In this document: one piece after another, positions 12,023 through 26,973 of the stretch | How the letters are laid out: every line of letters starts with the position of its first letter | Position numbering within the stretch: the stretch's first letter is position 1 | Origin: Deltaproteobacteria bacterium | Lineage (GTDB): Bacteria; Myxococcota_A; Polyangia; JAAYKL01 | Assembly: GCA_016935665.1 (NCBI GenBank) | Contig: JAFGQN010000101.1 | Location: 1-45,875 of the forward strand | Length of the DNA: 45,875 nt | Direction: 5' to 3' | Notes under the pieces: model-generated | What the model was told of the DNA's origin: nothing | Seen by the model: the letters and a program-made list of their open reading frames with translations, nothing else | Databases searched by the model: none | Translations under genes and position numbers: made by a program

Positions 12023-12475
12023 ATGTTCAAGGGTCGATATAATCACGCAGTTGATGGAAAAGGACGTACCAGTCTGCCGGCAAAGTTTCGTGAAAACGTT
12101 GCGGCAGAGGGAAATGATCGCGTTGTTTTGACCTTTGCGCTGGATTCGGATTATCCCCACCTTGATGTCTATCCGTTTGTTCGCTGGAGTGAATTTGAGC
12201 AGAAACTGGCCGAGAAACCCACGTTTGATGAAAATGTCATTCTACTTAAACGATTCTACGTGGCCAATGCTGTGGAGTGTCCGGTGGACAGTCATGGCCG
12301 AATTCTGATTCCCCCCACGCATCGAGACTATGGCGGCATCTCATCAGATGCCACCTGGGTGGGAATGAATCGAATCATAGAACTTTGGAAACCGGAAAGT
12401 TGGGATGCTGCTCAGGCGGAAGCTCTGGCAAATCTGTCGCAGATTCGCAAAGGCCTTTCGGCATTCGACCTTTAA
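12023..12475 (+). CDS. mraZ: Transcriptional regulator MraZ
   Basis: A 150-residue AbrB-fold protein made of two repeats. Each carries a D-x3-R core: DGKGRTSLPAKFR near the N-terminus and DSHGRILIPPTHR in the second half. It is the DNA-binding repressor of its own dcw operon, acting through TGGG repeats such as those just upstream. ATG 12023 (MFKGRYNHAVD) is the family start; a GTG at 12011 in frame lies inside the operator and is unlikely. No clear Shine-Dalgarno is visible before the ATG, because the operator fills that space. It is followed by rsmH after 8 bp. Confidence 0.95.
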   Translation: MFKGRYNHAVDGKGRTSLPAKFRENVAAEGNDRVVLTFALDSDYPHLDVYPFVRWSEFEQKLAEKPTFDENVILLKRFYVANAVECPVDSHGRILIPPTHRDYGGISSDATWVGMNRIIELWKPESWDAAQAEALANLSQIRKGLSAFDL

Positions 12476-12483
12476 AGGAATTA

Positions 12484-13422
12484 ATGGATACAACGTTTGA
12501 ACATAAGTCGGTATTGCTCGATGAAGTGATCTCCATTTTGTCGCCCCGATCGGAAGGTGTGTACTGCGATGGGACGCTGGGAGGCGGGGGACACGCGGAA
12601 CGCATTCTGGAAGCGAGCGCCCCGCTTGGAAGACTGATTGGTATTGACCAGGATTTGGATGCCATCACCGCAGCCAAAAAGCGGCTGGCGCGTTTTGGTG
12701 GCCGTGCACAGATTTTTCACGGTCGTTTTTCGCAGCTTGACGAATTGATTCGGCAGGCCGGGATCACGCAGCTGGATGGTATGCTGCTGGACCTGGGAGT
12801 GTCATCCCATCAACTCGATGAAGCGAGTCGCGGATTTTCATTTATGAACGCCGGTCCCATCGATATGCGCATGGACGCTTCGGCGGGGGAAAGCGCAAAA
12901 GAGCTTTTGGCTCGTGTTTCCGAAGACGAACTGGCGGATATTATCTACCGGTTTGGTGAAGAACACATGGCGCGCAAAGTGGCGCGCTCCATTAAGCAGA
13001 TGGAGGCCACAGGCACGCTGGAAACCACACGGGATTTGGCCGTGGCGGTTCAGCGGGTCGTGGGTAAAAAGCGTCCGGGCAAGAGCGACCCCGCCACCAA
13101 AACGTTCCAGGCCATTCGCATCGCCGTGAATGACGAGATGAAAGAGCTGGAGTCGGTATTGCAGATGCTGCCGGAACCGTTGGCGGTGGGTGGCACCGTG
13201 GCCATTATTACTTTCCATTCTTTGGAAGACCGCATGGTTAAACAGCGATTTGAAGAACTGGTCAATCCCTGCAAATGTCCACCGGGCATGCCGGTGTGTC
13301 AATGTCCCAAACCGCTGGCGCAATATGCCACCCGTCGCAGTGTTCGTGTGAGCAATCAGGAACAGGAGCAGAACAGGCGGGCGCGAAGTGCGCGTGTTCG
13401 GGCGATTCGGAGGGTTCGATGA
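12484..13422 (+). CDS. rsmH: 16S rRNA (cytosine1402-N4)-methyltransferase RsmH
   Basis: A 312-residue SAM-dependent enzyme that methylates N4 of C1402 in 16S rRNA. The SAM-binding motif is DGTLGGGGHAERIL, followed by GIDQDLDA, DLGVSSHQLDEASRGFSF, the SDPATKTFQAIRIAVNDE block and IITFHSLEDRMVKQRF. A cysteine-rich stretch near the C-terminus (CKCPPGMPVCQCPKP) is a feature of many family members. ATG 12484 is preceded by AAAGGA about 5 nt upstream. A longer in-frame extension overlapping mraZ has no family resemblance. The stop overlaps the ftsL start (ATGA). Confidence 0.95.
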   Translation: MDTTFEHKSVLLDEVISILSPRSEGVYCDGTLGGGGHAERILEASAPLGRLIGIDQDLDAITAAKKRLARFGGRAQIFHGRFSQLDELIRQAGITQLDGMLLDLGVSSHQLDEASRGFSFMNAGPIDMRMDASAGESAKELLARVSEDELADIIYRFGEEHMARKVARSIKQMEATGTLETTRDLAVAVQRVVGKKRPGKSDPATKTFQAIRIAVNDEMKELESVLQMLPEPLAVGGTVAIITFHSLEDRMVKQRFEELVNPCKCPPGMPVCQCPKPLAQYATRRSVRVSNQEQEQNRRARSARVRAIRRVR

Positions 13423-13895
13423 ACCGAAGGGTCTCACGCAAAGAATCTGCGGCGGTTTCATCGGAAAAAGGATCGGTCAAACGGCCGCCCGCGTTTTTTC
13501 CCATTTTTCGCCGGCAGGTGAGTGCGCGAGTGACAGAAAGTCTGGGTGGACGGGCGATGTCAACGACAAATTCCGTTTCGAAAGACATTGGCATCTTTCA
13601 TCTGTTGATCATCTGTTTATCGTTGATCGCGGCTGCGGCAGGGATGATTTACCATCTTCACGTTCGGTTTGAAGGTGTGCGACTGGGCTATGAAGCCAGT
13701 GAACAGCGCAAGATACAAACCCGACTCATGTTGAAACGGCGAGAATTGCGATTGGAACTGGCATCCATGAAGGAGCCAGGGCGCATTGAGGACGAAGCTC
13801 GGGAAAAACTGGGCATGGGGACGCCAAAAGCGGAAGAATTCGTCCACATCAACAAAACAAAGAAAGTGGTATCTGTTTCGGGCGGAGCACTGTAG
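13419..13895 (+). CDS. ftsL: Cell division protein FtsL-like
   Basis: A 158-residue bitopic membrane protein. It has a basic cytoplasmic N-terminus (1-56), one transmembrane helix (about 57-80, IGIFHLLIICLSLIAAAAGM) and a periplasmic coiled-coil (about 85-130: SEQRKIQTRLMLKRRELRLEL), ending in the EDEAREKLGMGTP motif typical of FtsL/DivIC. It bridges FtsQ and the FtsWI synthase in the divisome. Sequence conservation in this family is low, so the call rests on topology and on the position between rsmH and ftsI. The ATG overlaps the rsmH stop. Confidence 0.85.
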   Translation: MNRRVSRKESAAVSSEKGSVKRPPAFFPIFRRQVSARVTESLGGRAMSTTNSVSKDIGIFHLLIICLSLIAAAAGMIYHLHVRFEGVRLGYEASEQRKIQTRLMLKRRELRLELASMKEPGRIEDEAREKLGMGTPKAEEFVHINKTKKVVSVSGGAL

Positions 13896-13897
13896 TC

Positions 13898-15946
13898 GTG
13901 TTATTGCTAACGCGGGACAGACGGTTCTGGATTCGAATTCGAATTTGTTTCATCGTTTCATTGATGATGGCGGGGACTATTGCCGTGGGCTGGGGGGCCT
14001 GGTCACTGGGCGTCGTTCGCCAAAAAGAACTCTCCGACATTGCCAGAGAACAATACATTCGGCGCATTTCGGTTTCCGCCCGAAGGGGACTGATTACAGA
14101 CAGATATGGTGAGGAACTGGCCGTGGAAGTGGAAGTGGATTCCATTTATGCCGACCCGCGCGAAGTCAAAAATGCCGGGTATGCCGCTAAAAAGCTGGCC
14201 TCTGTACTGGACCGGGAACAGGATGTTCTGCAAAGGCGTTTAAGCTCCAGGAAACATTTTGTATGGCTGAAACGGCGTGTATCGCCTTCGGAGTCCACAA
14301 AGGTCAAAGCGATGAAGCTTAAGGGTGTTCACATTGTGAAGGAAAGCAAACGCTTTTATCCCAGTCGAGAACTGGCGGCGCATGTGGTGGGATTTGCCGG
14401 AATGGATTCCAGAGGGTTGGAAGGGGTGGAGCGACTGTTTGATGATCAGCTTAAGGGAAACCAGGACGCCGCCAGCGGGTTGGCCGATGCCCAGGGCAAT
14501 ATCGTTTTTTCTAAAGGCGTTTTTGGTGCGGACAAAGTGGTGGGCAACAATATTATGCTGACCATTGATAGAAATCTGCAGTTTGAGGTTGAAGAGGAGT
14601 TGAAGAATACGGTTCGGTTGTTTCAGGCGAAATCGGGCCAGATTGTGGTCATGGATCCCAACAGTGGCGATGTGCTGGCCATGGCCAGTTATCCCACATA
14701 CAACTTAAATGATATTACATCGTCCAATCCGGACAAGCGGCGAAATCGCGCCGTGCTTGATGTGTATGAACCCGGATCCACTATGAAGGTGTTTACCCTG
14801 GCAGCGGCCATCAACAGCGGTGTGTTGCGTCCCAATGAGAAAATTTTCTGTGAAAAGGGACGGATGGAATTCTACGATGTGGTGCTTCACGATGACCACC
14901 GGGATGGCTGGCTCAATCCCACGCAATGTCTAAAACGTTCCAGTAATATCTGTTTTGCCAAAATTGCCGGGCGAATGGGAAGCAAGCGACTGTATCGTTA
15001 TATGCGTCGGTTTGGTTTTGGTGAAAAAACCAATGTACAGGTTCCCTATGAGATGCGGGGGTTGTTGCAGCACCATAATGAATGGAGTGAATTTCTGACA
15101 GCCACCATCGCATTTGGACAGGGAATTGGCGTAACGGGAATTCAGATGGCGACCGCTCTTTCCACCATTGCCAACGGCGGTAAACTGATGAAGCCCAACC
15201 TGATTCGCAAAGTGACCGATGCGGAAGGGGAAATTATTCTGGAAAATACCCCCACCGTACGCAGGCGAGTCATCAGTCGGCGCACCGCGCGATTGGTAAC
15301 CGATATGATGACAGCAGTAACGGAAGAGGGTGGCACGGGGAGCGAGGCGGCGCTGGAAGGATATTTGGTGGCCGGGAAGACGGGCACTGCGCAAAAATCA
15401 ACGGGCGCCCATGGTTACAGGGACAAGGAGAAATTTGTCGCATCATTTTTTGGATTTGTCCCGGCCGACAATCCACGAATGGTGATCTCGGTGGTCATCG
15501 ATGAACCCCTCGTCAGTTATTACGGCGGCACCGTGGCGGCGCCCGCGTTGCGTCGAATCGCTGACAAGGCGCTTAGAGATATGGGCGTCACTCCCAATTT
15601 TACAGTGCGTCGCGGAAATCCGGCATCGAAAGCGGAAGATGCGGAACTGAGTACGGAGCGGGAGCAGGAGGGCACCGTGGTGGAGAATACTGCCGTGAAT
15701 GAGCAGGCGGCAATGATAACTCCTGCGGAGATCCCATTAAAAAAAGGTCAGGTTCGAACGCCAAAGCTCATTGGACTGCCCATGGGGCTGGTCGTATCGG
15801 AATTGGCGGAGTTCGAACTCCGGCCGCTGTTCTTTGGAACCGGGGTTGCTGCGGAACAGACACCGGCGCCCGGTGTGCCCATCGACAAAGGCGAATATGT
15901 TCAGGTGAATTTCAGCCCGAACGGAGAGTATGAAGGTAACCAATGA
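13898..15946 (+). CDS. ftsI: Septal peptidoglycan transpeptidase FtsI (PBP3) with PASTA domain
   Basis: A 682-residue class B penicillin-binding protein that cross-links septal peptidoglycan in the periplasm. One transmembrane anchor (about 14-37) is followed by the dimerisation domain (RRGLITDRYGEELAVEVEV) and the transpeptidase domain. The catalytic motifs are complete: S294-TMK (EPGSTMKVF), S348-S-N (RSSNICFAK) and K494-T-G-T. A C-terminal PASTA-like domain (about 618-675, VRTPKLIGLPMGLVVSELAE) is present, as in Firmicutes SpoVD and several delta-proteobacterial lineages but not E. coli FtsI. The start is GTG 13898, two bases after the ftsL stop; the stop overlaps murE (ATGA). Confidence 0.95.
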   Translation: MLLLTRDRRFWIRIRICFIVSLMMAGTIAVGWGAWSLGVVRQKELSDIAREQYIRRISVSARRGLITDRYGEELAVEVEVDSIYADPREVKNAGYAAKKLASVLDREQDVLQRRLSSRKHFVWLKRRVSPSESTKVKAMKLKGVHIVKESKRFYPSRELAAHVVGFAGMDSRGLEGVERLFDDQLKGNQDAASGLADAQGNIVFSKGVFGADKVVGNNIMLTIDRNLQFEVEEELKNTVRLFQAKSGQIVVMDPNSGDVLAMASYPTYNLNDITSSNPDKRRNRAVLDVYEPGSTMKVFTLAAAINSGVLRPNEKIFCEKGRMEFYDVVLHDDHRDGWLNPTQCLKRSSNICFAKIAGRMGSKRLYRYMRRFGFGEKTNVQVPYEMRGLLQHHNEWSEFLTATIAFGQGIGVTGIQMATALSTIANGGKLMKPNLIRKVTDAEGEIILENTPTVRRRVISRRTARLVTDMMTAVTEEGGTGSEAALEGYLVAGKTGTAQKSTGAHGYRDKEKFVASFFGFVPADNPRMVISVVIDEPLVSYYGGTVAAPALRRIADKALRDMGVTPNFTVRRGNPASKAEDAELSTEREQEGTVVENTAVNEQAAMITPAEIPLKKGQVRTPKLIGLPMGLVVSELAEFELRPLFFGTGVAAEQTPAPGVPIDKGEYVQVNFSPNGEYEGNQ

Positions 15947-17466
15947 AAACGCTTTCACAAATAGCGGCGGCTGTACCAGGAATGCGCGTTGTGGGTGACG
16001 GTGATGTGGTGGTATTGGGGATTACCCATGATTCCAGAAGTGTTCAGCCGGGAGACATTTTTGCAGCGCTGAAAGGGGAAAATGTGGATGGCACGCGGTT
16101 TGTAGAGAGTGCCACCGCCAACGGTGCGGTGGCAGTTTTGTGTGACGCCCCGCTGGATATACCCCTGCCTCAATTGGTGGTGACGGATGTCAGGATGCGC
16201 CTTGGGGAGGTAGCGGCCGCCTGCTTTGACCATCCTGCGCGCGCGCTGCGACTCATAGGCATTACAGGGACCAACGGCAAGACCACCATTACATACCTGG
16301 TGGAATCCATTTTGCAGCACGCCGCCATGGCGTGTGGAGTGATGGGAACGGTGGAATACCGTTTTGGAACACAGAAATGGCATGCCGATCATACCACTCC
16401 AGAGGCGACAGTGGTGCAGTCCATCATGCGGAAAATGGTGGATGCGGGGGCAAACGCACTGGCGATGGAAGTGTCTTCTCATGGATTGTCGCTGGGCAGG
16501 CTCAACGGGTGCGAATTTGATGTGGTGGCCTTTACAAACCTGACGCAGGATCATTTGGACTTTCACCACACCATGGAGGAGTACGCAGATGCCAAAATGC
16601 GTCTGTTCACTGAAATGATTGCCCATCGACTGGACGTAAAGGTGGTGATAAATCTGGATGATTTGTTTTCAAAAAAGATCATCGAAAGCTGTGGAAGGGA
16701 TGTTATCAGTATTTCGTCGCTTGGTAATCTGGCGGCGACACTGTATCCTGTATCACCTCCGGAATACAGCATTTCCGGGACTGTGGCCACAATCCAGACG
16801 CCCGACGGAGAGGTGAAAATACAGACCGGTTTGTGCGGTGCGCACAATTTAAACAATCTGCTGGTGGCCTTTGGTATCTGTCGTGCCATGGGGATCTCCA
16901 ATGATACCGTGCAAAAAGCGGCGAAGCATATCCCATCGGTGCCAGGGCGGCTGGAACGGGTACCCTGCGATTTGGGATTTTCGATTTTTGTGGATTACGC
17001 CCACACGCCGGACGCGCTGGTAAATGTGTTGCGCGTTTTGAAACCGATGACGCCAGGGCGTCTGATTTGCGTTTTTGGATGCGGTGGCGACCGGGATGGG
17101 GCCAAACGCCCGATTATGGGAGCGGCTGTGGCGCAATATGCGGATATTGCGATTGTCACCAGTGATAACCCGCGCACCGAAGAACCCAAAAAAATTATTT
17201 CGATGGTACTTCCCGGCGTGCAGAAATTTCAGGACGATAAACTTGAACTGAATCAACTTGGAGATGCGCGAAACGGATACATCGCCATTACGGAAAGGCG
17301 AGAGGCCATCGCACGTGCCATTCAGTGTGCAGGCGCAGGCGACGCGGTGTTGCTGGCGGGAAAAGGCCATGAGGACTATGTGATTATTGGTCGAGAAAAG
17401 TTTCATTTCGATGATCGCGAGGAAGCGGCAATCGCTGTGAAAAAGCGAAAAGAAAACGCTCTTTAA
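15943..17466 (+). CDS. murE: UDP-MurNAc-L-Ala-D-Glu--meso-diaminopimelate ligase
   Basis: A 507-residue Mur ligase that adds the third stem-peptide residue in the cytoplasm. The ATP loop GTNGKTT (109-115) and the meso-DAP selectivity motif DNPR (408-411, in SDNPRTEEP) are visible. DNPR, rather than the DDP/DNPA types of lysine-adding enzymes, predicts meso-DAP in this cell wall. Other family blocks are MEVSSHGL, TNLTQDHLDFH and VDYAHTPDAL. It starts with ATG overlapping the ftsI stop by 4 bp and is followed by murF after 20 bp. Confidence 0.96.
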   Translation: MKTLSQIAAAVPGMRVVGDGDVVVLGITHDSRSVQPGDIFAALKGENVDGTRFVESATANGAVAVLCDAPLDIPLPQLVVTDVRMRLGEVAAACFDHPARALRLIGITGTNGKTTITYLVESILQHAAMACGVMGTVEYRFGTQKWHADHTTPEATVVQSIMRKMVDAGANALAMEVSSHGLSLGRLNGCEFDVVAFTNLTQDHLDFHHTMEEYADAKMRLFTEMIAHRLDVKVVINLDDLFSKKIIESCGRDVISISSLGNLAATLYPVSPPEYSISGTVATIQTPDGEVKIQTGLCGAHNLNNLLVAFGICRAMGISNDTVQKAAKHIPSVPGRLERVPCDLGFSIFVDYAHTPDALVNVLRVLKPMTPGRLICVFGCGGDRDGAKRPIMGAAVAQYADIAIVTSDNPRTEEPKKIISMVLPGVQKFQDDKLELNQLGDARNGYIAITERREAIARAIQCAGAGDAVLLAGKGHEDYVIIGREKFHFDDREEAAIAVKKRKENAL

Positions 17467-17486
17467 AACAAACGAGGTATCCATTC

Positions 17487-18854
17487 ATGTGGACGTATTC
17501 AGTTTCGGAGGTGGCGTCGATTGTGGACGGCACCGTTGTGGGGGATGGGGCAGTGACCGTTTCGGGAGTGTTTACCGATTCCCGTGCGGATGGCAGCGAA
17601 ATGTTGTTTGTGGCATTGCGCGGCGAAAACTTCGACGGTCATCGGTTTGTGAGTGACGCCGCCCAAAAAGGTGCAAAGGCCGCATTGGTGACAGAACCGG
17701 TTGCGGTAAGCTCCCTGGCGCAGATAGTGGTGTGTGACACATTGCAGGCACTGACACGACTGGCGACCCATCACCGACGCCGTTTTAACCTGAAAGTGGC
17801 TGCGATAACCGGATCGGCGGGAAAAACCACCACCCGAACACTGCTGAGCGGCATTCTTGGCGTTTCGAAAAAAGTCCATGAACCTGAAAAAAATTTCAAT
17901 AATCATATTGGCGTGCCGTTGACGATGATGAAACTGGATAGGTCATACGACGCGGCTGTGTTTGAACTGGGATGCTCCGATTTTAACGAAATTGGGCCGT
18001 TGACAAAAATTGTGTCTCCCCACGTGGCGCTGATAACCAATGTGGGGCCGGCCCATCTGGAAAAATTAAAGAATCTGGAAGGGGTGGCGAGAGCCAAAGG
18101 GGAGTTGTTTGACGAACTGGATGCCGACGCCATCGCTATTGTCAATCTGGACGACCCTCATATTTCCAAAATGCACACCTGTGCAGAAAATAGAGTGACG
18201 TTTTCCACAGGCGGTGCTTCTTCCGATGTGATGCTGCTGGACAGGACGCCCGGACCATTTGGCCAGTCATTAACGATGAAACTGAACGATACCCGAATGG
18301 ACGTCGCATTTCCACTGCCCGGGTTTCATAACGCCATTGACGCGACGGCCGCTGCGGCTGCTGCCCTGGCAATGGGAGCATCGTTGGACGATATCAAAAC
18401 CGGACTGGCGTCGGCGAAAACACGACCGGGTCGATTTGAGATTCACGACAAAAACGGTGTGTGTGTAATTGATGATACATACAATGCCAACCCGTCCTCC
18501 GTCGCCGCCTCGCTGGAAGTACTTGCCGAAATGGTTCCGGCTGCGCAGCGAATGGCAGTGTTGGGCGATATGCTGGAGCTTGGGGTAAATACTCTGGACG
18601 CGCATCGTCAAATAGGCCGAATTGCAGCGAGACTGGGATTGAAAAAGCTATTTCTTTTTGGTGCGTTCGCTGATGCAACTAAACAAGGTGCTGTGGCCGA
18701 AGGAATGGATGCGTTGAAAATCGAATGCAGTGACAACGTTTTGGAAATTGCAAAAAAAGTGGTCGAAATTTCGAAATCCGGTGATGCGTTGCTTATAAAG
18801 GGATCACGGGGAATGAAACTGGAACGGGTGGTGTGCGCCATATTGGAAGGATAA
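17487..18854 (+). CDS. murF: UDP-MurNAc-tripeptide--D-Ala-D-Ala ligase
   Basis: A 455-residue Mur ligase that attaches D-Ala-D-Ala to the UDP-MurNAc tripeptide. The N-terminal substrate domain contains GVFTDSRADGSEMLFVALRG; the ATP loop is GSAGKTTTR (from G109); then comes NFNNHIGVPLTMM, the MurF-specific block VIDDTYNANPSSV and VLGDMLELG. Length and order match MurF. It is 20 bp after murE with GAGG upstream, and mraY follows after 6 bp. Confidence 0.96.
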   Translation: MWTYSVSEVASIVDGTVVGDGAVTVSGVFTDSRADGSEMLFVALRGENFDGHRFVSDAAQKGAKAALVTEPVAVSSLAQIVVCDTLQALTRLATHHRRRFNLKVAAITGSAGKTTTRTLLSGILGVSKKVHEPEKNFNNHIGVPLTMMKLDRSYDAAVFELGCSDFNEIGPLTKIVSPHVALITNVGPAHLEKLKNLEGVARAKGELFDELDADAIAIVNLDDPHISKMHTCAENRVTFSTGGASSDVMLLDRTPGPFGQSLTMKLNDTRMDVAFPLPGFHNAIDATAAAAAALAMGASLDDIKTGLASAKTRPGRFEIHDKNGVCVIDDTYNANPSSVAASLEVLAEMVPAAQRMAVLGDMLELGVNTLDAHRQIGRIAARLGLKKLFLFGAFADATKQGAVAEGMDALKIECSDNVLEIAKKVVEISKSGDALLIKGSRGMKLERVVCAILEG

Positions 18855-18860
18855 AAAGAA

Positions 18861-20021
18861 ATGTTGTACCAGCTTCTGTTCGATCTTCATCAGTACACCG
18901 ATTCACTTGGGTGGCTGAATGTTCTTCGCTATGTGCCATTTCGAACCATTATGGCCATGCTGACATCCATGTTCATGAGTTTCTTTCTTTATCCCTGGTT
19001 TATTGCCCGCATGAGAAAACGCAACATTGGGCAGTCGGTGCGGCAGGAAGGTCCGGAAGCGCATTTTTCAAAAGAAGGCACGCCCACTATGGGCGGGTCA
19101 CTGCTTTTGTTTGCCACTGTAATGTCAACGGTGCTCTGGTCTGATTTGAACAACAAATTTGTATGGCTGGTGTTGGCCATTACCGTTGGGTATGGACTCA
19201 TTGGTTTCATTGATGACTATCTTAAAATCCGGTACTCGGATTCCAGAGGCATGCCGGGGAAATTTAAACTGCTGTTTCAAACGCTGCTGGCTGCGGTGAT
19301 TTTTCTTTATGTGTATATGGACCCCAATCTGCCACCGGAATGGCTCGATATTCGCCATCGCCTGGCATTGCCGTTTGCTGCGTTCGAAAACAACTCTGCG
19401 CTTCTTGAGTCGGCGCCCTGGTATGCAAGTTTATCGCTGCCCCCGTGGCTGTATGTGATTTTTGCCACATTTGTAGTGGTGGCCATGTCCAACGCCATCA
19501 ATCTCACGGATGGTCTGGACGGTTTGGCCATCGGGCCGGTGATGGTAAACGCCGGCGCCTTTCTTGTTCTGGCGTACCTTTCTGGTTTGGTGCTGTTTGG
19601 CATCAACATTCCCGAATATTTGAAAATTCCGTCGATTCCCATGGCCAGCGAATTGACCATTTTCTGCGGGACCATATTTGGCGCCGGAATGGGATTTCTC
19701 TGGTACAACACGTTTCCCGCTCAGGTATTTATGGGGGACGTGGGTTCGCTCTCGTTGGGTGGCGCCGTGGGAATGTTGGCGGTACTCACTAAAAACGAAT
19801 TTCTGGTGGTGATTCTGGGCGGTATTTTTGTACTGGAGGCGGTATCTGTCATTACTCAGGTGGCCAGTTTTAAACTTATTGGCAAACGGATATTCCGCAT
19901 GGCGCCCATTCATCATCACTTTGAGTTGAAGGGATGGCCGGAGCCCAAAGTCATTGTGCGCTTTTGGATTATCTCAATCATGCTGGCCCTGGTGGCGCTG
20001 TCGTCGCTGAAACTCAGATAA
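18861..20021 (+). CDS. mraY: Phospho-MurNAc-pentapeptide transferase MraY
   Basis: A 386-residue polytopic membrane enzyme that transfers phospho-MurNAc-pentapeptide to undecaprenyl phosphate (lipid I). Signature segments are GTPTMGGSLLL, the magnesium-binding FIDDYLKIRYSDSRGM, the NLTDGLDGLA loop, MGDVGSLSLGG and APIHHHFELKGWPE. About ten transmembrane helices are evident. In most dcw clusters murD follows; here ftsW follows directly, with no space for murD. Confidence 0.97.
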   Translation: MLYQLLFDLHQYTDSLGWLNVLRYVPFRTIMAMLTSMFMSFFLYPWFIARMRKRNIGQSVRQEGPEAHFSKEGTPTMGGSLLLFATVMSTVLWSDLNNKFVWLVLAITVGYGLIGFIDDYLKIRYSDSRGMPGKFKLLFQTLLAAVIFLYVYMDPNLPPEWLDIRHRLALPFAAFENNSALLESAPWYASLSLPPWLYVIFATFVVVAMSNAINLTDGLDGLAIGPVMVNAGAFLVLAYLSGLVLFGINIPEYLKIPSIPMASELTIFCGTIFGAGMGFLWYNTFPAQVFMGDVGSLSLGGAVGMLAVLTKNEFLVVILGGIFVLEAVSVITQVASFKLIGKRIFRMAPIHHHFELKGWPEPKVIVRFWIISIMLALVALSSLKLR

Positions 20022-20036
20022 GGGAGATTGACGTTG

Positions 20037-21281
20037 GTGGATTCGGATTTCCAGACGCGGGACAACAAAGGCAGATTGCAGCGCCGCCCCATGGATAAAG
20101 CGTTGCTGGTATCGGTGCTGATGCTCTGTGTCTTTGGTCTGATAATGGTTTTTTCGGCATCTGCGGTGGAAGCGGGCAAAAAGTTCGACAATCCCATGCT
20201 CTTTTTCAACAAGCAGGCCATCTTCGCCGGCATTGGTCTGGTGGCCATGTTGGTTCTGGCGCGCGTGGATTACGCAATCTATACCAAAAGTGTGGTGGTC
20301 TGGTCCATGCTGGCGTTGGCATTCTTTGGTGTGCTTGCCTGTAAAACCCCACTGGGACTAACGCTGAACGGCGCCTCTCGCTGGCTTAAGGCTGGCCCCA
20401 TTACCATTCAGCCCGCTGAAGCGTTAAAAGTGTGTCTGGTGCTTTGGCTGTCGTACTCGCTCAATAAAAAGAGTCTTAAAATCAAGTCCTTTTCCATTGG
20501 TTTTTTGCCCCATCTTATTATTCCTGGAATGCTGATGGCCGCATGTATGTTGCAGCCGGACTTTGGCACCACCATGGTGATGGCTATTCTCACATTCACG
20601 CTGCTATTCGTGGCGGGCGCCAAGCTGGGATATATTCTGCTGGCAGCTATCGTGTCCACGCCAATTGTTTATTTTCTCATTACCGGAAGCGCCTATCGTT
20701 TGGCGCGAATGATGACATTTCTGGATCCGCTGGCCACTCGTTTTACAACAGGGTACCAGCTGAGTCAGTCACTTTTTGGATACGCATCCGGGGGCTTCTC
20801 AGGTCGGGGATTGGGGGATGGATTGCAGAAACTGCTGTACCTACCCGAGGCGCACAACGATTTTATTGGCAGTATTATCGGTGAGGAACTGGGAGTGATT
20901 GGTATATGGGCGGTGTTGCTGTTGTATGTGGTGGTGGCGACTCGCGGCATTGTTATCGCTTTTAGGTCCAGAGACACGTTTGGCACTTATGTGGCCTTTG
21001 GAATCAGCACCCTTTTCGCAATACAGGCGTTACTGAACCTGGCGGTGTCCATGGGGTTGCTTCCCACAAAGGGATTGAATCTGCCATTTGTGAGTTATGG
21101 TGGGTCAGCGCTGTTGATTACCATGGCGGCTGCGGGAATTTTGTTGAGTGTGTCCCGAGGGTCGAAATACGAAGTGGCCGCGGATGTTGAAGAGCTTGCG
21201 GAGTCGACGGATACCGACGACAAATCCGGTCGACACAGAAAAGGCAATCGCCGCTCGTCGTCCGCCCAAAAAGGCAAGTGA
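20037..21281 (+). CDS. ftsW: SEDS peptidoglycan glycosyltransferase FtsW
   Basis: A polytopic SEDS-family protein of about 414 residues that polymerises septal glycan strands together with FtsI. The N-terminal membrane segment LLVSVLMLCVFGLIMVFSAS, the KAGPITIQPAEALK motif and the PTKGLNLPFVSYGGSALL segment near the C-terminus mark the family. The cytoplasmic tail is strongly basic (DKSGRHRKGNRRSSS). The start is uncertain: AGGGAG at 20021-20026 favours TTG 20034 or GTG 20037 (chosen) over TTG 20028, which is only 1 nt away. Confidence 0.94.
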   Translation: MDSDFQTRDNKGRLQRRPMDKALLVSVLMLCVFGLIMVFSASAVEAGKKFDNPMLFFNKQAIFAGIGLVAMLVLARVDYAIYTKSVVVWSMLALAFFGVLACKTPLGLTLNGASRWLKAGPITIQPAEALKVCLVLWLSYSLNKKSLKIKSFSIGFLPHLIIPGMLMAACMLQPDFGTTMVMAILTFTLLFVAGAKLGYILLAAIVSTPIVYFLITGSAYRLARMMTFLDPLATRFTTGYQLSQSLFGYASGGFSGRGLGDGLQKLLYLPEAHNDFIGSIIGEELGVIGIWAVLLLYVVVATRGIVIAFRSRDTFGTYVAFGISTLFAIQALLNLAVSMGLLPTKGLNLPFVSYGGSALLITMAAAGILLSVSRGSKYEVAADVEELAESTDTDDKSGRHRKGNRRSSSAQKGK

Positions 21282-21330
21282 TTTCAAAGAAAGTAAATGC
21301 AATGAAAAAAATGCGACGCATGGGGGAATC

Positions 21331-22410
21331 ATGAATGACCGTTTTAAGGTAGTTTTGGCCGGAGGCGGAACCGGTGGCCACATCATCCCGGCTATTGCGG
21401 TGGCGGATGAGGTGACGCGACTTGGGGGGACGGTGCGCTTTGTTGGTACAGAGGGACGTATCGAGGAAAAACTGGTTCCCAAAGCGGGTTATGGTATCGA
21501 CTTTATCAAAGTCAAACCGCTTGCCGGTGGCGGTATTGGTCGAAAAGTGGCGGGCTTGGCGTCGGCGCCGGTCTCGGTGCTGACTTCTGCGGCATTGCTT
21601 AGAAAACTGTCGCCCAGTGTGGTTATTGGCGTGGGTGGATATGTCGCGGGACCAGTGGTTTTGGCAGCCAGGCTCATGGGAATTCCCACAGCGCTGTTGG
21701 AGCAGAATGCCACGGTTGGATTGGCCAATCGCATTTTAAAGCCTGTCATAAAAAAGGCGTTCGTATCGTATGTAGACACTGTGGCCGAATTTCCCCCTGG
21801 AAAAGCGGAGTATACTGGAAATCCGGTTAAACAGCAGATTCTGGATGCGGCCAATAAAAAAAAGAAGGCATTCAAACGCTGTCGAATTCTGGTAATGGGT
21901 GGATCGCAGGGGGCAAGGACCATTGACAGCCGGGTACCTGCGGCATTGGCCGCTTCGGGGCTGGCGTCTAAAATTTCGGTCGTTCATCAAGGGCAGGCGA
22001 CAAATCTGGCCTTTGTGCAACAGACATACGATGATGCCAAAATAAAAGCGGTAACCGAAGCCTTTATCGACGATACCGCCAGTGCGTTTTTGGACGCGGA
22101 TCTGGTTATCGCCCGGTCTGGTGCGACCACTGTGGCGGAACTGACAGTTATGGGGTTGCCCGCAATCTTCTTACCATATCCGCATCATGCAGATAAGCAG
22201 CAGGAAAAAAACGCGGCTCCCATGAAAGAGGCGGGAGCGGCCATTGTTCTGGATGAAAAAAACACGAATGTATCGGATTTGACGCAGGCCATATTGAGTA
22301 TGGTCCAATCGCCTGAAAAACTGGCCGACGCCGCTGCTGCATCAAAAAAACTGGGTAAACCCGATGCCGCTAAAGTAATCGCTACCCGACTGCTGGAGAT
22401 GGCCAGATAA
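21331..22410 (+). CDS. murG: UDP-GlcNAc:lipid I N-acetylglucosaminyltransferase MurG
   Basis: A 359-residue GT-B glycosyltransferase that makes lipid II at the inner face of the membrane. The N-terminal GGGTGGHIIPAIAVA loop, GVGGYVAGPVVLAA, LLEQNATVGLANR, the second-domain VMGGSQGARTID and ARSGATTVAELT segments are all present. ATG 21331 with TGGGGGAA upstream is the family start; an in-frame extension back to 21148 overlaps ftsW and is not MurG-like. FtsQ follows after 20 bp; murC, murB and ddl, often found here, are absent. Confidence 0.96.
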   Translation: MNDRFKVVLAGGGTGGHIIPAIAVADEVTRLGGTVRFVGTEGRIEEKLVPKAGYGIDFIKVKPLAGGGIGRKVAGLASAPVSVLTSAALLRKLSPSVVIGVGGYVAGPVVLAARLMGIPTALLEQNATVGLANRILKPVIKKAFVSYVDTVAEFPPGKAEYTGNPVKQQILDAANKKKKAFKRCRILVMGGSQGARTIDSRVPAALAASGLASKISVVHQGQATNLAFVQQTYDDAKIKAVTEAFIDDTASAFLDADLVIARSGATTVAELTVMGLPAIFLPYPHHADKQQEKNAAPMKEAGAAIVLDEKNTNVSDLTQAILSMVQSPEKLADAAAASKKLGKPDAAKVIATRLLEMAR

Positions 22411-22430
22411 TGGTTTTTAAGGGGTGATAG

Positions 22431-23546
22431 ATGAGTATTTTTCGCGGCAAACATCAGAGCGCAAATGTTCGGCCTAAAGGAAACAGGCGGGTTTCCGATG
22501 GCAAAAGCGAGAAAGCGGCGCCCCAAAGGCAAATTCCCCATGATCGTAAAAATCGCCGCACGCCAGATGATATACCCGTTGGGAAACGCGATGGAAACCG
22601 GCGAGTGCTGCGTAAAAAAAACACGGTTAGCGAAGAGACGGAACTTAAAAAAAAGCGGATAAATCGCCGTCGCCCAAAGGTGGAAGCAACGCCCCCTGAA
22701 CCTTTGGAAGTGGACGATGTGGACAATGAGCCCCCGGAGCGAAAGCGATTCAACTGGAAGCCTTATGTATTTGGGCTGGGGCGTTTGCTGGCAGTACTGG
22801 TTACCATTGCGCTGGTGGTGTGGGGTGCTGGGGCAGCATATCGCTATGCGCTGACATCCACATATTTTGCGCTGCAGCACGTGGAGATAAACGGCAACGA
22901 ACGATTAACCAACAGTGATGTTCTCGCAGCAGCGGGCATTGAAATGGAACAGAATATTTTTTCTGTGAATCTCGCTGAAGTGGCAAAACGCCTGGAGGAT
23001 ACCCCGTGGGTTGTTTCTGCCGGGGTGCGCCAGAAGCTGCCCAAAACAATCATCATCGATATTATTGAGCGCAAATCCACCATGATGGTGCTTTTTGATG
23101 TGCCCTATCTGGTGGATGAAAGCGGCGAAATTTTTAAACGATGGACCACTGGCGACCCCATGCCCCAATGCATGCTTTCCGGACTTGGCCGTCGGGATTT
23201 GATTGAAGACCAGGAAGGCACACAACAGATTATTCTCGATGCCATTTCATTGAGAGACAGATACAACAGTGCAGGAAACAAACGCTATGCCGATCTGTAC
23301 GAAATCCATCGTGAAATCGATGGTGGATTTTCACTTACTGTGGGCAAAAAACCGTTTTATATCAAACTGGGCAAACCACCGTATCGAAAAAAGCTAAACC
23401 GAATGGCCCAACTGTTCGGTAAAATGGGAAAGAACGGCCGCCAACCCCTCATTGTATACTTCGACAACGAAAAACGCCCCGACCGGGTAACCGTGAAATA
23501 CAAACCACAGGAGGCGAAACGGGCTTTTGACGCTCAACGCCGTTGA
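22431..23546 (+). CDS. ftsQ: Cell division protein FtsQ
   Basis: A 371-residue bitopic divisome protein. It has an unusually long, very basic cytoplasmic N-terminus (1-110, many Arg/Lys), one transmembrane helix (about 112-137), a POTRA domain (about 144-215, starting FALQHVEINGNERLTNSDVL and ending KTIIIDIIERK) and a beta domain. It scaffolds FtsL/FtsB and FtsWI in the periplasm. ATG 22431 follows GGGGTG. It is the last gene of the operon in this window; ftsA and ftsZ do not follow. Confidence 0.93.
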   Translation: MSIFRGKHQSANVRPKGNRRVSDGKSEKAAPQRQIPHDRKNRRTPDDIPVGKRDGNRRVLRKKNTVSEETELKKKRINRRRPKVEATPPEPLEVDDVDNEPPERKRFNWKPYVFGLGRLLAVLVTIALVVWGAGAAYRYALTSTYFALQHVEINGNERLTNSDVLAAAGIEMEQNIFSVNLAEVAKRLEDTPWVVSAGVRQKLPKTIIIDIIERKSTMMVLFDVPYLVDESGEIFKRWTTGDPMPQCMLSGLGRRDLIEDQEGTQQIILDAISLRDRYNSAGNKRYADLYEIHREIDGGFSLTVGKKPFYIKLGKPPYRKKLNRMAQLFGKMGKNGRQPLIVYFDNEKRPDRVTVKYKPQEAKRAFDAQRR

Positions 23547-24012
23547 TGTCAATGGCATCTGAGTTTTGTGCTTTTGTAACGGCCCAGACATGATTCGACG
23601 AATGATGTGTATATACATTGATTGGGAAGGTACGAAGAGAATGCCTTTTGGGGAAATTGATTTGCCCAATAGCATATAGTTTTTATGGACGGCGAATGAA
23701 TTATATTCGATTCATGGAAACTGAGAAATTGACGGGTCTAAATACTATTGCCCTATGTCACCCATCAGATAATTCAACACCACGATGACAGACATTTCAA
23801 AATAAATCCTTTACGAAATTACCGAATTGCCTGTAGGATATTTGCAATACAGATATCTGAAAGCTGGTAAATACCTGCAATTCCGAAGCAAGTTTCGCAC
23901 CTGTTGCATCCTCCTGGTCGTGCTGAATGTATCGTTCTGTCATTAAACGGGTTTGGTTATTTCAGCAATATAGCGCGTGATAAAAAAAAGTTTTCAACGT
24001 AAGGAGGTGCGT
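23547..24012. other. Intergenic region between ftsQ and the radical SAM gene
   Basis: About 465 bp, clearly more AT-rich than its neighbours and without a supported gene. It separates the dcw operon from the radical SAM / EPAH pair, so it should hold the terminator of one and the promoter of the other. A short dyad (ATGAAT...ATTCAT near 23696-23714) has no T-tract. A TTGACG at about 23729 has no good -10 at proper spacing. Confidence 0.45.
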
Positions 24013-25755
24013 ATGGGTTTACACATATCTCTGATAGGAACCGAGCTCGAAGAGAATCTGGCGTTGCGTTATATAGCTTCCAGTTTGGAAGCAGTGGGAC
24101 ATAGCACCAGCATTGTGGCATTTTCCACGCCACAGGACGCGGATAGAGTGCTGCGAACCATCGTAACTCAGAATCCTGACATTTGTGGATTGTCCATGAT
24201 TTTTACCAGTAGAGCACAGGAATTTCTCGAACTGGCAAAGTCGCTTAGAAAATTTGGGTATCAGGGACACATCATCGCTGGCGGTCATTTTGCCTCCTTC
24301 AATTTCGAGAAGATTCTGACGGATGTTTCGGCCATTGATTCCGTCGCCCTTGGAGAAGGAGAACATACGATGGTGTCACTTGCAAAGAATCTTCATCAGC
24401 TTGAGCGGGTTGACGGGCTTTGCTATCGGGACAGACAGGGCAGAGTTTTTCGAAATGATGAAGCGCCATCGCAGGACCTTGACGAATTGCCATTCCCCAA
24501 ACGGCTTTCATTTCACGACTATTTTGGACACCCCATTGCGTCAATGCTCAGTAGTCGGGGATGCTGGCGCAGCTGTCATTTTTGCTCCATCAATGCCTGG
24601 TATCGGCGCTGCGGTGGGAAGCGATTTCGAATTCGCAGTGTGGAAAACATTGCCGACGAGATGACATTGCTTTATCACGAGCATGGAATTCGTATTTTCA
24701 ATTTTCAGGATGACAATTTTTTCCTTCCTCGAAAGGATACGTCGGCAGCGCGTTTTGAACACCTGCGTGATCTGCTTCGCAAAAACGGTGTAACGCGCAC
24801 TGCGATTGCCATCAAGGCGCGCCCCGACAGTATTACACATGAAACCGTGGCACCCCTTGATGATTTGGGATTGTTTCGCGTTTTTCTGGGAGTGGAAAAC
24901 GGATCTCAGCGAGGTCTTGATAATCTCAACCGAAAAAGCACATTAAGCGAAATTGAGCATTCCTTAAAAGTGCTGAATGATTTCGATATTCACGTGGCCT
25001 ATAACCTGCTGATGTTTGAGCCGAACACCACCATGGATGACATTCATGGCAATCTCCGCTTTATGGAACGTCACATTGACAACCCATTCAATTTTTGTCG
25101 AGCAGAAGCGTATGCCGGCACGGGTCTGGAAACCATTTTACAAAATGAGAACGCCCTTTTGGGCGATTGGCTCGGATTTGATTATCGGCTAAAACATTCT
25201 GAATGCGAAACGTTTCATCAAATTGCCAACTTCGCCTTTTTTGATCGCAACTTCAATAATAACGGCTTGCATTACTTTAACATGCAGGTGGATTTCTACT
25301 ACCAGATTCTGAGGCGCTTTTTTCCAACAACTCTCGACGAATCCATCCGGAGCGATGTGAAAAATTTCATTAAATGCACCAATTTGGATACTTACGCGCA
25401 CCTTTGCAGAATTTATGATTTTGTTCAGCAGCATGGCAGCCAAGATCGAGTGCTGGTTCAGGGATTTGCCAGCGAGATGAGATATCGTGTGGATGAATCG
25501 GGACGGAATTTGTTAGTGAGGGGATGTCAAATCATCAATGACCTGGAAAAGCGGCCACATCGGGAACATCCCGCAAGTGCTGCGACAATTGCGCAATCCA
25601 CAACGTCTGTGCTGGAGTCGCTGCTGAACTGTTCACCTGCGCCGTACGATGAACGTCTGGCGTTTAGAATGCAACAATTTTCACCAACGTTCGGGATGCG
25701 GTTGTCATTGCAGACGCCCATCCCCTACCATCAATACAAGGGATGGTCGGATTGA
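24013..25755 (+). CDS. B12-binding-domain radical SAM protein
   Basis: A 580-residue protein with a cobalamin-binding-type N-terminal Rossmann domain (about 1-130: ISLIGTELEENLALRYIASS, GHIIAGGHFASFN, SVALGEGEHTM) and a radical SAM domain. The cluster motif is C184-x3-C188-x2-C191 (GCWRSCHFCS), followed by the usual IFNFQDDNFFLPR strand and VFLGVENGSQRGLD. The canonical DxHxxG cobalamin lower-ligand motif is not visible, as in many such enzymes. Members of this class carry out methylations or other radical chemistry on peptides, lipids and tetrapyrroles. The start ATG 24013 follows AAGGAGGTG. The next gene, 30 bp downstream, encodes a repetitive EPAH-motif protein, which suggests that protein is the substrate. 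The C-terminal 200 residues are not recognised. Confidence 0.88.
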   Translation: MGLHISLIGTELEENLALRYIASSLEAVGHSTSIVAFSTPQDADRVLRTIVTQNPDICGLSMIFTSRAQEFLELAKSLRKFGYQGHIIAGGHFASFNFEKILTDVSAIDSVALGEGEHTMVSLAKNLHQLERVDGLCYRDRQGRVFRNDEAPSQDLDELPFPKRLSFHDYFGHPIASMLSSRGCWRSCHFCSINAWYRRCGGKRFRIRSVENIADEMTLLYHEHGIRIFNFQDDNFFLPRKDTSAARFEHLRDLLRKNGVTRTAIAIKARPDSITHETVAPLDDLGLFRVFLGVENGSQRGLDNLNRKSTLSEIEHSLKVLNDFDIHVAYNLLMFEPNTTMDDIHGNLRFMERHIDNPFNFCRAEAYAGTGLETILQNENALLGDWLGFDYRLKHSECETFHQIANFAFFDRNFNNNGLHYFNMQVDFYYQILRRFFPTTLDESIRSDVKNFIKCTNLDTYAHLCRIYDFVQQHGSQDRVLVQGFASEMRYRVDESGRNLLVRGCQIINDLEKRPHREHPASAATIAQSTTSVLESLLNCSPAPYDERLAFRMQQFSPTFGMRLSLQTPIPYHQYKGWSD

Positions 25756-25785
25756 ATTCGATCCTGCCTTGAAAGGAGAACAGAC

Positions 25786-26973
25786 ATGGCAAGCTATCGG
25801 GTTAACACGGGAGTAAGAGAACCGGCGCATCCGCAGCTGGTGCAAATGTTCGATGACCTGCGCAGCATTTATACACTGCTCAGGGATACTGTTCAGCAGC
25901 GCATTGATACAGCGTTTGACGCAGCGTCAAAGAAAATTGGATTTGTGGTGACCACTACCCTTCCAGTGGTGATTACTGTAAATAAAGACGGTCAGCCCAC
26001 TTTTGAAAGAATGGGGACTGAAAATCTGCAGGGAACGATTTATGAGGAAGCCATTGCCGGTGCTCTTGGCGAACTCGCGAAAGAAAACTGCAAGGCAAGT
26101 CCCGGAGAATATTCCATTTATCTGTTTTGGTTTGATGCACTCAAGCTCAAAGTAAAAACCGATTGGCTGGAGCCGGCACACATTCAACGGGGATGGTTGG
26201 AACCGGCTCATTTTCTTACCGAACCAGCGATTTTCCGCTCATCAGTAGGCAAATCACCAGAACGCAGTCCTGTTGCTGATCCACCTCCTGAGCCGCTTCT
26301 CAATCTGGGCGCTATTACCAGTGTCCAGGAACGGATCCTCATTTCAGCGATCGACGAAATCTATCCCGAACTTATGATTGCCAGCCGTTTGAATCCAGCT
26401 GCCGGGCAATTTGCCGTGACAGAAGGTGTATCCGAGCCCGCCCATTACCTGCACCGTTCCGCTTCACCGCGAATGGCGCAGCAGGCTGTTGCATACGATG
26501 TTCAGGAACCTGCCCATTTCCGTTGGCGTCCTGACCTGTGGCATATCGACCCTTATGCAGCGCGTATTCCCCAGCGATATGCTGCACCATATGCTGTCGC
26601 CTATGATGTCCAGGAACCGGCCCACTATCAAAAACTGCAACCGGAGTTGACCAGACGAGACTACTATGCCCCAGCCACTGCACAGGCCGCAGCTGTCAGG
26701 CCGGATGTGCAGGAACCGGCCCACTACAGGCATTGGTTGCCCCGTATTCCGTATCTTGTTCGCTCCGATATTCCTGAACCCGCACACTACCGAGTGCCGG
26801 CAGGGTACGAATTGGTACAAAATCCAGCACCCTCCGCGTCAGCATACTACTATCCCGAACTGCAATATCAGCAAAACCAATACTGGCCAAGGACGCAGGG
26901 GTTTGTCCCCTACGAGGTGCAGGAACCCTCGCATTTTCAGTTTACGCCAGGTGCTGTTCGGCGCCCCTACTGA
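25786..26973 (+). CDS. EPAH-repeat protein, candidate multi-site radical SAM substrate
   Basis: A 395-residue protein of no family I know. Residues about 17-125 look like a compact folded domain (FDDLRSIYTLLRDTVQQRID, then strands FVVTTTLPVVITVNKDGQP and YSIYLFWFDALKLKV). The motif EPAH (once EPSH) occurs nine times, with E at 12, 129, 139, 217, 241, 277, 310, 331 and 380, usually followed by Y or F; a degenerate EPAIF sits at 146-150. Three copies read DVQEPAH. Between copies the chain is rich in Tyr, Pro, Arg, Gln and Trp and has almost no Cys (one, C102). Codons of the motif differ synonymously between copies. ATG follows AAAGGAG. Placed 30 bp after a B12-radical SAM gene, it resembles a precursor with many modification sites; function is inference. 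Confidence 0.8.
   Translation: MASYRVNTGVREPAHPQLVQMFDDLRSIYTLLRDTVQQRIDTAFDAASKKIGFVVTTTLPVVITVNKDGQPTFERMGTENLQGTIYEEAIAGALGELAKENCKASPGEYSIYLFWFDALKLKVKTDWLEPAHIQRGWLEPAHFLTEPAIFRSSVGKSPERSPVADPPPEPLLNLGAITSVQERILISAIDEIYPELMIASRLNPAAGQFAVTEGVSEPAHYLHRSASPRMAQQAVAYDVQEPAHFRWRPDLWHIDPYAARIPQRYAAPYAVAYDVQEPAHYQKLQPELTRRDYYAPATAQAAAVRPDVQEPAHYRHWLPRIPYLVRSDIPEPAHYRVPAGYELVQNPAPSASAYYYPELQYQQNQYWPRTQGFVPYEVQEPSHFQFTPGAVRRPY

Follow-up and report, generated by a model that had tools for sequence, protein, structure and literature searches.

A B12-dependent radical SAM enzyme and an adjacent EPAH-repeat protein form a candidate cassette for multi-site peptide modification

What does a cobalamin (B12)-dependent radical S-adenosylmethionine (SAM) enzyme act on when the gene directly behind it encodes a protein that repeats one four-residue motif nine times? 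The question is raised by a gene pair in contig JAFGQN010000101.1 of a Deltaproteobacteria bacterium placed in Myxococcota_A (GenBank assembly GCA_016935665.1); the whole 45,875-nucleotide stretch is called the window here. A first-pass annotation of the window, made from its letters, had proposed an undescribed peptide-modification system in which each Glu-Pro-Ala-His (EPAH) motif could be one modified site. The data presented below make it probable, at roughly 0.6 in our estimate, that the enzyme C-modifies this motif at several sites of its partner, most likely by C-methylation, and that the two genes constitute an obligate enzyme-substrate cassette. The two genes and the main features of the enzyme are as follows.

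24013..25755, plus strand: B12-binding/radical SAM enzyme, 580 amino acids (aa); start ATG at 24013, with the mechanical open reading frame (ORF) running from a GTG at 23977
24052..24381, plus strand: cobalamin-binding domain PF02310, residues 14-123 (Pfam E 2.1e-16, 60.3 bits against a cut-off of 32.1)
24550..25059, plus strand: radical SAM domain PF04055, residues 180-349 (Pfam E 1e-15)
24562..24585, plus strand: [4Fe-4S] motif C184-x3-C188-x2-C191 (CWRSCHFC), invariant among aligned relatives
25717..25740, plus strand: conserved C-terminal segment PIPYHQYK (PIPYxxF[KR] in the clade; alignment), a candidate docking peptide
25786..26973, plus strand: EPAH-repeat partner, 395 aa, of no known family, the proposed substrate (ORF, family searches, motif counts)

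Both ORFs lie where the first-pass annotation had placed them, separated by a gap of 30 bp and each preceded by a good Shine-Dalgarno sequence (AAGGAGGT at 24001-24008 for the enzyme, AAAGGAG at 25772-25778 for the partner). Scans of the locus for promoters and terminators returned matches no more than chance. GC content drops only slightly at the pair, to 0.44-0.53 from 0.49-0.57 in the surroundings, and thus does not demonstrate transfer by itself.

The enzyme belongs to the cobalamin-dependent radical SAM class, as its cluster motif, its B12-binding domain and the fold of a relative all fit; the cobalamin-type N-terminal domain and the cysteine motif read by eye in the first pass were both recovered, the former by Pfam and the latter by the invariance of the cysteines. 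The fold was examined in a natural relative 38% identical to the window enzyme (L038), whose closest structures were OxsB, TsrM, CysS, MgmA and TokK (Foldseek E approximately 1e-14 to 1e-19), and OxsB was also matched in a hidden Markov model search with the clade profile (E 1.5e-17). TsrM, CysS, MgmA and TokK are methylases, with OxsB the ring-contracting exception. The NCBIfam scores of the enzyme fall far under the cut-off for every B12-radical SAM family, the best being BchE with 107.9 bits against 481; the enzyme is likewise not a member of TIGR03975 (rSAM_ocin_1; 79.7 against 281.85), NF050148 (ApyD; 75.1 against 750) or NF040546 (CUAEP/CCAEP-tail radical SAM; 45.6 against 500). PADLOC gave only a weak generic radical SAM match to PDC-M51A for the enzyme and no match for the partner. 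No Pfam match to a PqqD-type domain, the recognition element (RRE) of ribosomally synthesized and post-translationally modified peptide (RiPP) systems, was obtained for either protein; an RRE is not universal among RiPP enzymes.

The motifs of the partner, the proposed substrate, are listed below together with the folded part of the protein.

25819..25830, plus strand: EPAH site 1, residue 12; position kept in 16/17 homologues
25828..26169, plus strand: folded core, residues 15-128, weakly TolA/TonB-C-terminal-like (AlphaFold2 block means mostly >80; Foldseek/VIA)
26170..26181, plus strand: EPAH site 2, residue 129; position kept in 16/17 homologues
26200..26211, plus strand: EPAH site 3, residue 139 (motif count, alignment)
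26434..26445, plus strand: EPAH site 4, residue 217; alignment position common to 12/17 homologues
26506..26517, plus strand: EPAH site 5, residue 241; alignment position common to 11/17 homologues
26614..26625, plus strand: EPAH site 6, residue 277 (motif count)
26713..26724, plus strand: EPAH site 7, residue 310 (motif count)
26776..26787, plus strand: EPAH site 8, residue 331 (motif count)
26923..26934, plus strand: EPSH site 9, residue 380 (motif count)

With residue shuffles of the proteins as the background for motif counts, the window partner was found to contain nine EP(A/S)H motifs, eight EPAH and one EPSH, compared to a mean of 0.01 expected, and Tyr or Phe follows in seven of the nine, in agreement with the initial reading of the repeat. 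The codons of the nine motifs vary synonymously (GAA/GAG, CCG/CCC/CCT, GCG/GCA/GCT/GCC and CAT/CAC), which argues for selection on the peptide rather than for a DNA repeat. The same pattern extends to the homologues: the 17 partner proteins hold 82 EPxH motifs against 0.2 expected, 16 of the 17 carrying between 4 and 9 copies, mostly behind the conserved core. Of these 82 motifs, 70 have Ala as the variable residue and 78 have Val, Ile or Trp at position -2; His is followed by an aromatic residue in 56 of them and by Pro in 18. The consensus is [VIW]xEPAH[FYWP]. Two sites are fixed in 16/17 partners, one before the first helix and one just after the folded core, and a third is conserved in 15/17, while the remaining sites vary in number. 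The motif first described as EPAH is therefore repeated and conserved, as had been claimed, but in that form it was drawn too narrowly, since EPVH, EPPH, EPTH and EPSH also occur and [DE]P-x-P is found in the fused or adjacent tails of distant relatives.

An AlphaFold2 model built with 17 sequences gives the partner core the order alpha-beta-beta-alpha-beta-alpha and leaves the remainder, where most of the motifs lie, disordered, with a predicted local distance difference test (pLDDT) score below 50 from residue 207 on. The best fold matches of the core are TolA/TonB C-terminal domains, and these are weak: Foldseek placed 6sly first with an E of 0.12, VIA-align gave a Z of 5.0 to 4g7x_B over 91 residues at 3.3 A, and the top structural rows, nearly all TolA, TonB, FusB or HasB, are low-scoring throughout. 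The EPAH partner differs from these proteins in having no match to a TonB sequence family and, by eye, no signal or membrane segment. Pfam and NCBIfam assigned no family to any of the 17 members, save for chance single matches, so that the description of the EPAH protein as undescribed holds within these libraries. No sequence relative of the partner was found among solved structures at E up to 10, in a scan of viral contigs or in a plasmid search, and no paper joining "EPAH" with "radical SAM" was found in the literature searched, subscription papers being outside its scope.

The two genes were also observed to travel together. A scan of 84,980 species genomes found 17 relatives of the enzyme, 15 of them 50-58% identical to it overall. 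These 15 derive from Acidobacteriota (Bryobacterales, Terriglobia), Planctomycetota (Phycisphaerales, Candidatus Brocadia), Nitrospinae, Desulfuromonadales, Syntrophobacterales and other Deltaproteobacteria, as well as from Candidatus Methanoperedens, an ANME-2 archaeon and a Nitrososphaerota archaeon. A partner homologue was present at 15/15 loci with an enzyme identity of at least 50%, and it was adjacent in all but one: at the locus of the cultured strain Geomobilimonas luticola JCM 17780 (L034), a single gene intervenes (398 aa, L034:7789-8985). Searching whole genomes with a partner profile yielded three more pairs, with the enzyme adjacent each time, and no orphan partner. The pair is thus found in 19 genomes of Myxococcota, Desulfobacterota-type bacteria, Acidobacteriota, Planctomycetota, Nitrospinae and archaea; the gap between its genes varies among loci, and the gene order is reversed in L029.

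Two larger genome sets permitted an estimate of chance. Among 395 genomes of the Desulfobacterota-type phylum to which the L034 genome belongs, 2 have the enzyme (E up to 1e-60), and exactly these 2 have the partner; among 150 genomes of the archaeal order of the L023 genome, 3 have the orthologous enzyme (73-100% identical), and again exactly these have the partner. Simple counting puts the chance of coincidence at approximately 1 in 78,000 and 1 in 550,000, respectively, values that are approximate for genomes that are related. Failure of the two genes to co-occur elsewhere had been named in the first pass as grounds for discarding the idea; among close relatives, both genes were found together wherever either was found. 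In the window's phylum, the partner was detected in 1 of 284 genomes, the window's own. The pair is rare and scattered, which suggests that it has spread horizontally. A tree of 56 enzymes gathered all EPAH-paired enzymes into one clade with a support of 1.0. The window copy is the first branch of that clade, whose neighbor is a clade of fused enzymes with CEMAPPP/EPSH tails; the polarity of this branching is tentative because the tree was rooted at the midpoint.

These features can be combined into a mechanism. The folded N-terminal core of the partner would dock on the enzyme, possibly at the PIPYxxF[KR] segment conserved at the enzyme's C-terminal end; as linear peptides are bound by TolA and TonB domains through strand addition, such docking would be an attractive possibility. 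The flexible tail could then feed its [VIW]xEPAH[FYWP] motifs successively into the active site, and an unactivated carbon in each Glu-Pro-Ala-His unit, or next to it, would be altered there, so that one partner would be modified at several sites. The reaction is most likely C-methylation, as most of the closest structures belong to B12-radical SAM methylases and as ApyD, a RiPP enzyme of the B12-radical SAM type, C-beta-methylates Tyr in a short motif (PMC11117315).

Comparison with known systems places the pair near several of them. ApyD, of the aminopyruvatide pathway, is likewise a B12-radical SAM enzyme encoded with its peptide substrate and is the best NCBIfam match of some relatives of the window enzyme; however, it has an RRE domain and a small precursor, whereas no RRE match was obtained here and the partner, at 395 aa, combines a folded core with nine motifs. 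TIGR03975 enzymes are also B12-radical SAM proteins that act on ribosomal peptides, but none of the precursor types known from it was found here. In the case of MgmA and Mmp10, the protein that is C-methylated is methyl-coenzyme M reductase (PMC11796369, PMC8828468). Like the enzyme proposed here, they alter a large protein rather than a small peptide, and MgmA is a structural match of a relative, although their substrate is the reductase and no paired repeat protein is involved. The CUAEP/CCAEP-tail radical SAM (seleno)proteins of NF040546 have, by their name, a short motif in their own C-terminal tail, as do the fused relatives described below, with a different tail motif; no paper on CUAEP was found in the literature searched. 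As in RiPP systems, a candidate precursor gene stands beside the enzyme (30 bp away in the window, and paired in 19 genomes) and the repeated motifs lie mostly behind a conserved leader-like part in 16/17 homologues; unlike in those systems, no RRE match and no conserved protease or exporter accompany the EPAH pair. By analogy, the pair would work like a multi-core RiPP or a protein-modification cassette that falls in no curated family at the respective cut-offs, and because several RiPP features fail or are absent, we do not assign it to a named system.

Several observations weigh against an enzyme-substrate cassette built on EPAH. The third conserved site of the window partner, at residue 167, has no His (PEPLL). 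An archaeal partner whose enzyme is 50% identical to that of the window (L035:2235-2810) lacks EPxH altogether, its first site reading DPVNP, while its core is still recognizable at 28% identity; in this protein either the motif was lost or the target is a different one. Across the loci compared, no third gene is conserved with the pair, and there is no dedicated protease or exporter. Finally, no motif protein was found beside six distant enzyme relatives (L072, L073, L082, L089, L090 and L091) in the stretch examined. Some of these points would suit a partner that is an accessory scaffold, its core and EPAH motifs binding the enzyme or a third component while the enzyme modifies a small molecule, a lipid or another protein. 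The partner core is indeed well folded, the best NCBIfam scores of the window enzyme, all below cut-off, are to the small-molecule and lipid enzymes BchE and HpnJ, and L035 retains the pair without EPxH. We nonetheless judge a scaffold unlikely: a short motif that is strongly conserved within a disordered tail while its copy number varies is what multi-core substrates, rather than scaffolds, typically show, related motifs are fused to the enzyme itself in relatives, and no third gene is conserved with the pair.

The repeats might instead be metal- or cofactor-binding sites that stay unmodified, serving the enzyme or the cell in, for example, iron or cobalt handling. Glu and His at a fixed spacing are plausible ligands, the motif reaches nine copies, and radical SAM enzymes of this kind need iron-sulfur clusters and cobalamin; yet simple metal binding requires neither the invariant Pro nor the hydrophobic residue at -2 nor the aromatic one at +1, and the replacement of His by Pro in relatives (DPAP, DPLP) removes a ligand while the association with the enzyme is kept, so that this account appears improbable. 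Least credible of all is that the two genes are functionally unrelated neighbors co-inherited on a mobile segment. Their rarity and scatter over phyla are what horizontal transfer would give, but exclusive co-occurrence in 19 bacterial and archaeal genomes, despite a varying gap, the inversion in L029, the intervening gene in L034 and no other gene in common, is very hard to reconcile with chance linkage.

Modification of the motif by the enzyme also accords with what was seen in more distant relatives. In the window's phylum, such enzymes (approximately 29-45% identical) were found in 17 of 59 sampled genomes, with up to eight per genome. Many of them are 590-1024 aa long and consist of the enzyme part, an internal lipoprotein-like signal and an acidic-Pro-rich tail; by a simple pattern (Arg, a hydrophobic stretch, then a small residue and Cys), the signal is present in 18 of 26 long relatives. 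The fused tails contain 44 DP[LAVPM]P motifs compared to 4.2 in shuffles, and other motifs in them include an MCEMAPPPY type found four times in L067, ICDMAAPPPD, and EPSH in L062 and L065. Several long tails also hold a TonB-like alpha-beta-beta-alpha-beta domain, modeled in L038 at residues 573-670 with a pLDDT of roughly 50-80; a profile comparison of this domain with the EPAH core gave a P of 3e-4 and a probability of only 38%. The fused type in Myxococcota includes L062, L065, L067, L068, L071, L074, L076, L079, L081, L083, L086, L087 and L094-L096, most of which have the internal lipoprotein-like signal and in which the C-terminal tail looks exported and is rich in DPxP, CEMAPPP or ICDMAAPPPD, the enzyme apparently being joined to its own lipoprotein.

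In shorter relatives of about 550 aa (L069, L070, L077, L078 and L080), a separate lipoprotein gene with VCDPLPPP, VCDPMPD or IDDPLPKPM lies directly downstream of the enzyme gene. An archaeal protein of 113 aa in L110 (2771-3112) has three repeats, PVADPAPGW, IVADPAPPW and IIADPAPEY, and is encoded directly upstream of a 31%-identical enzyme (3242-4828), with coordinates counted along the reverse strand of the locus; ahead of these two lies a tyrosinase-like gene (1303-2721). GDPVDILW occurs in a 73-aa protein that is similarly encoded directly upstream of an enzyme relative in L111 (3580-3801) and L112 (3437-3658, reverse strand), and a protein with an astacin-like HEIGHTLGFPHE site follows downstream in these two loci.

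The simplest reading of these motifs is that [VI]x[DE]P(A/L/V)(H/P) would be the common target of the enzyme family, with EPAH as one form of it. This generalization is less secure than the EPAH pairing because the counts were made over related proteins and the tails are rich in Pro and Asp. Extending it further, we tentatively propose, as an idea somewhat short of even odds, that a phylum-spanning class of B12-radical SAM enzymes may modify this target in a cytosolic repeat protein, a separate lipoprotein, a small archaeal repeat protein or its own C-terminal tail. In the last case, the protein would be a fusion of enzyme and precursor that modifies itself, and cleavage would then release the tail for export as a lipoprotein via the internal signal. 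The EPAH cassette would have arisen from this class by splitting and have spread horizontally, the window copy being its earliest branch.

B12-radical SAM enzymes carry out some of the hardest peptide chemistry, and few of their substrates are known. Here, a substrate candidate, a modification motif and a one-enzyme test system can all be read from the genome, and they lead to a clear prediction, namely that VxEPAHF peptides will show mass shifts. Should the fused relatives act in this way too, they would be single-chain proteins that combine an enzyme with its exported substrate, a layout present, to our knowledge, in no described RiPP system, and multi-site radical modification would be extended to surface lipoproteins, methane-oxidizing archaea and anammox bacteria.

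The surroundings of the pair differ from locus to locus. In the window, a division and cell-wall cluster at 12277-23546 (by eye, murE/murF-like, mraY, ftsW, murG and ftsQ-like) ends with the ftsQ-like gene, and the EPAH pair begins approximately 430 bp after it, at the expected place of ftsA/ftsZ. Three of the loci from Deltaproteobacteria (L031:5062-5694, L033:4195-4830 and L034:5001-5621) have in common a LuxR-type regulator, encoded upstream of the pair at a distance of a few hundred bases. In Methanoperedens (L023:4547-10727), the EPAH pair has another radical SAM gene on either side, one of the SPASM type and one related to the peptide epimerase YydG, a setting that speaks for the enzyme-substrate reading. 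Behind the partner come two short ORFs that resemble each other and start MDIEKISLKVKGEEIRIP and MDIKKVSLLVKDEEIRIP, and a protein of 101-110 aa is present in two copies at the flanks.

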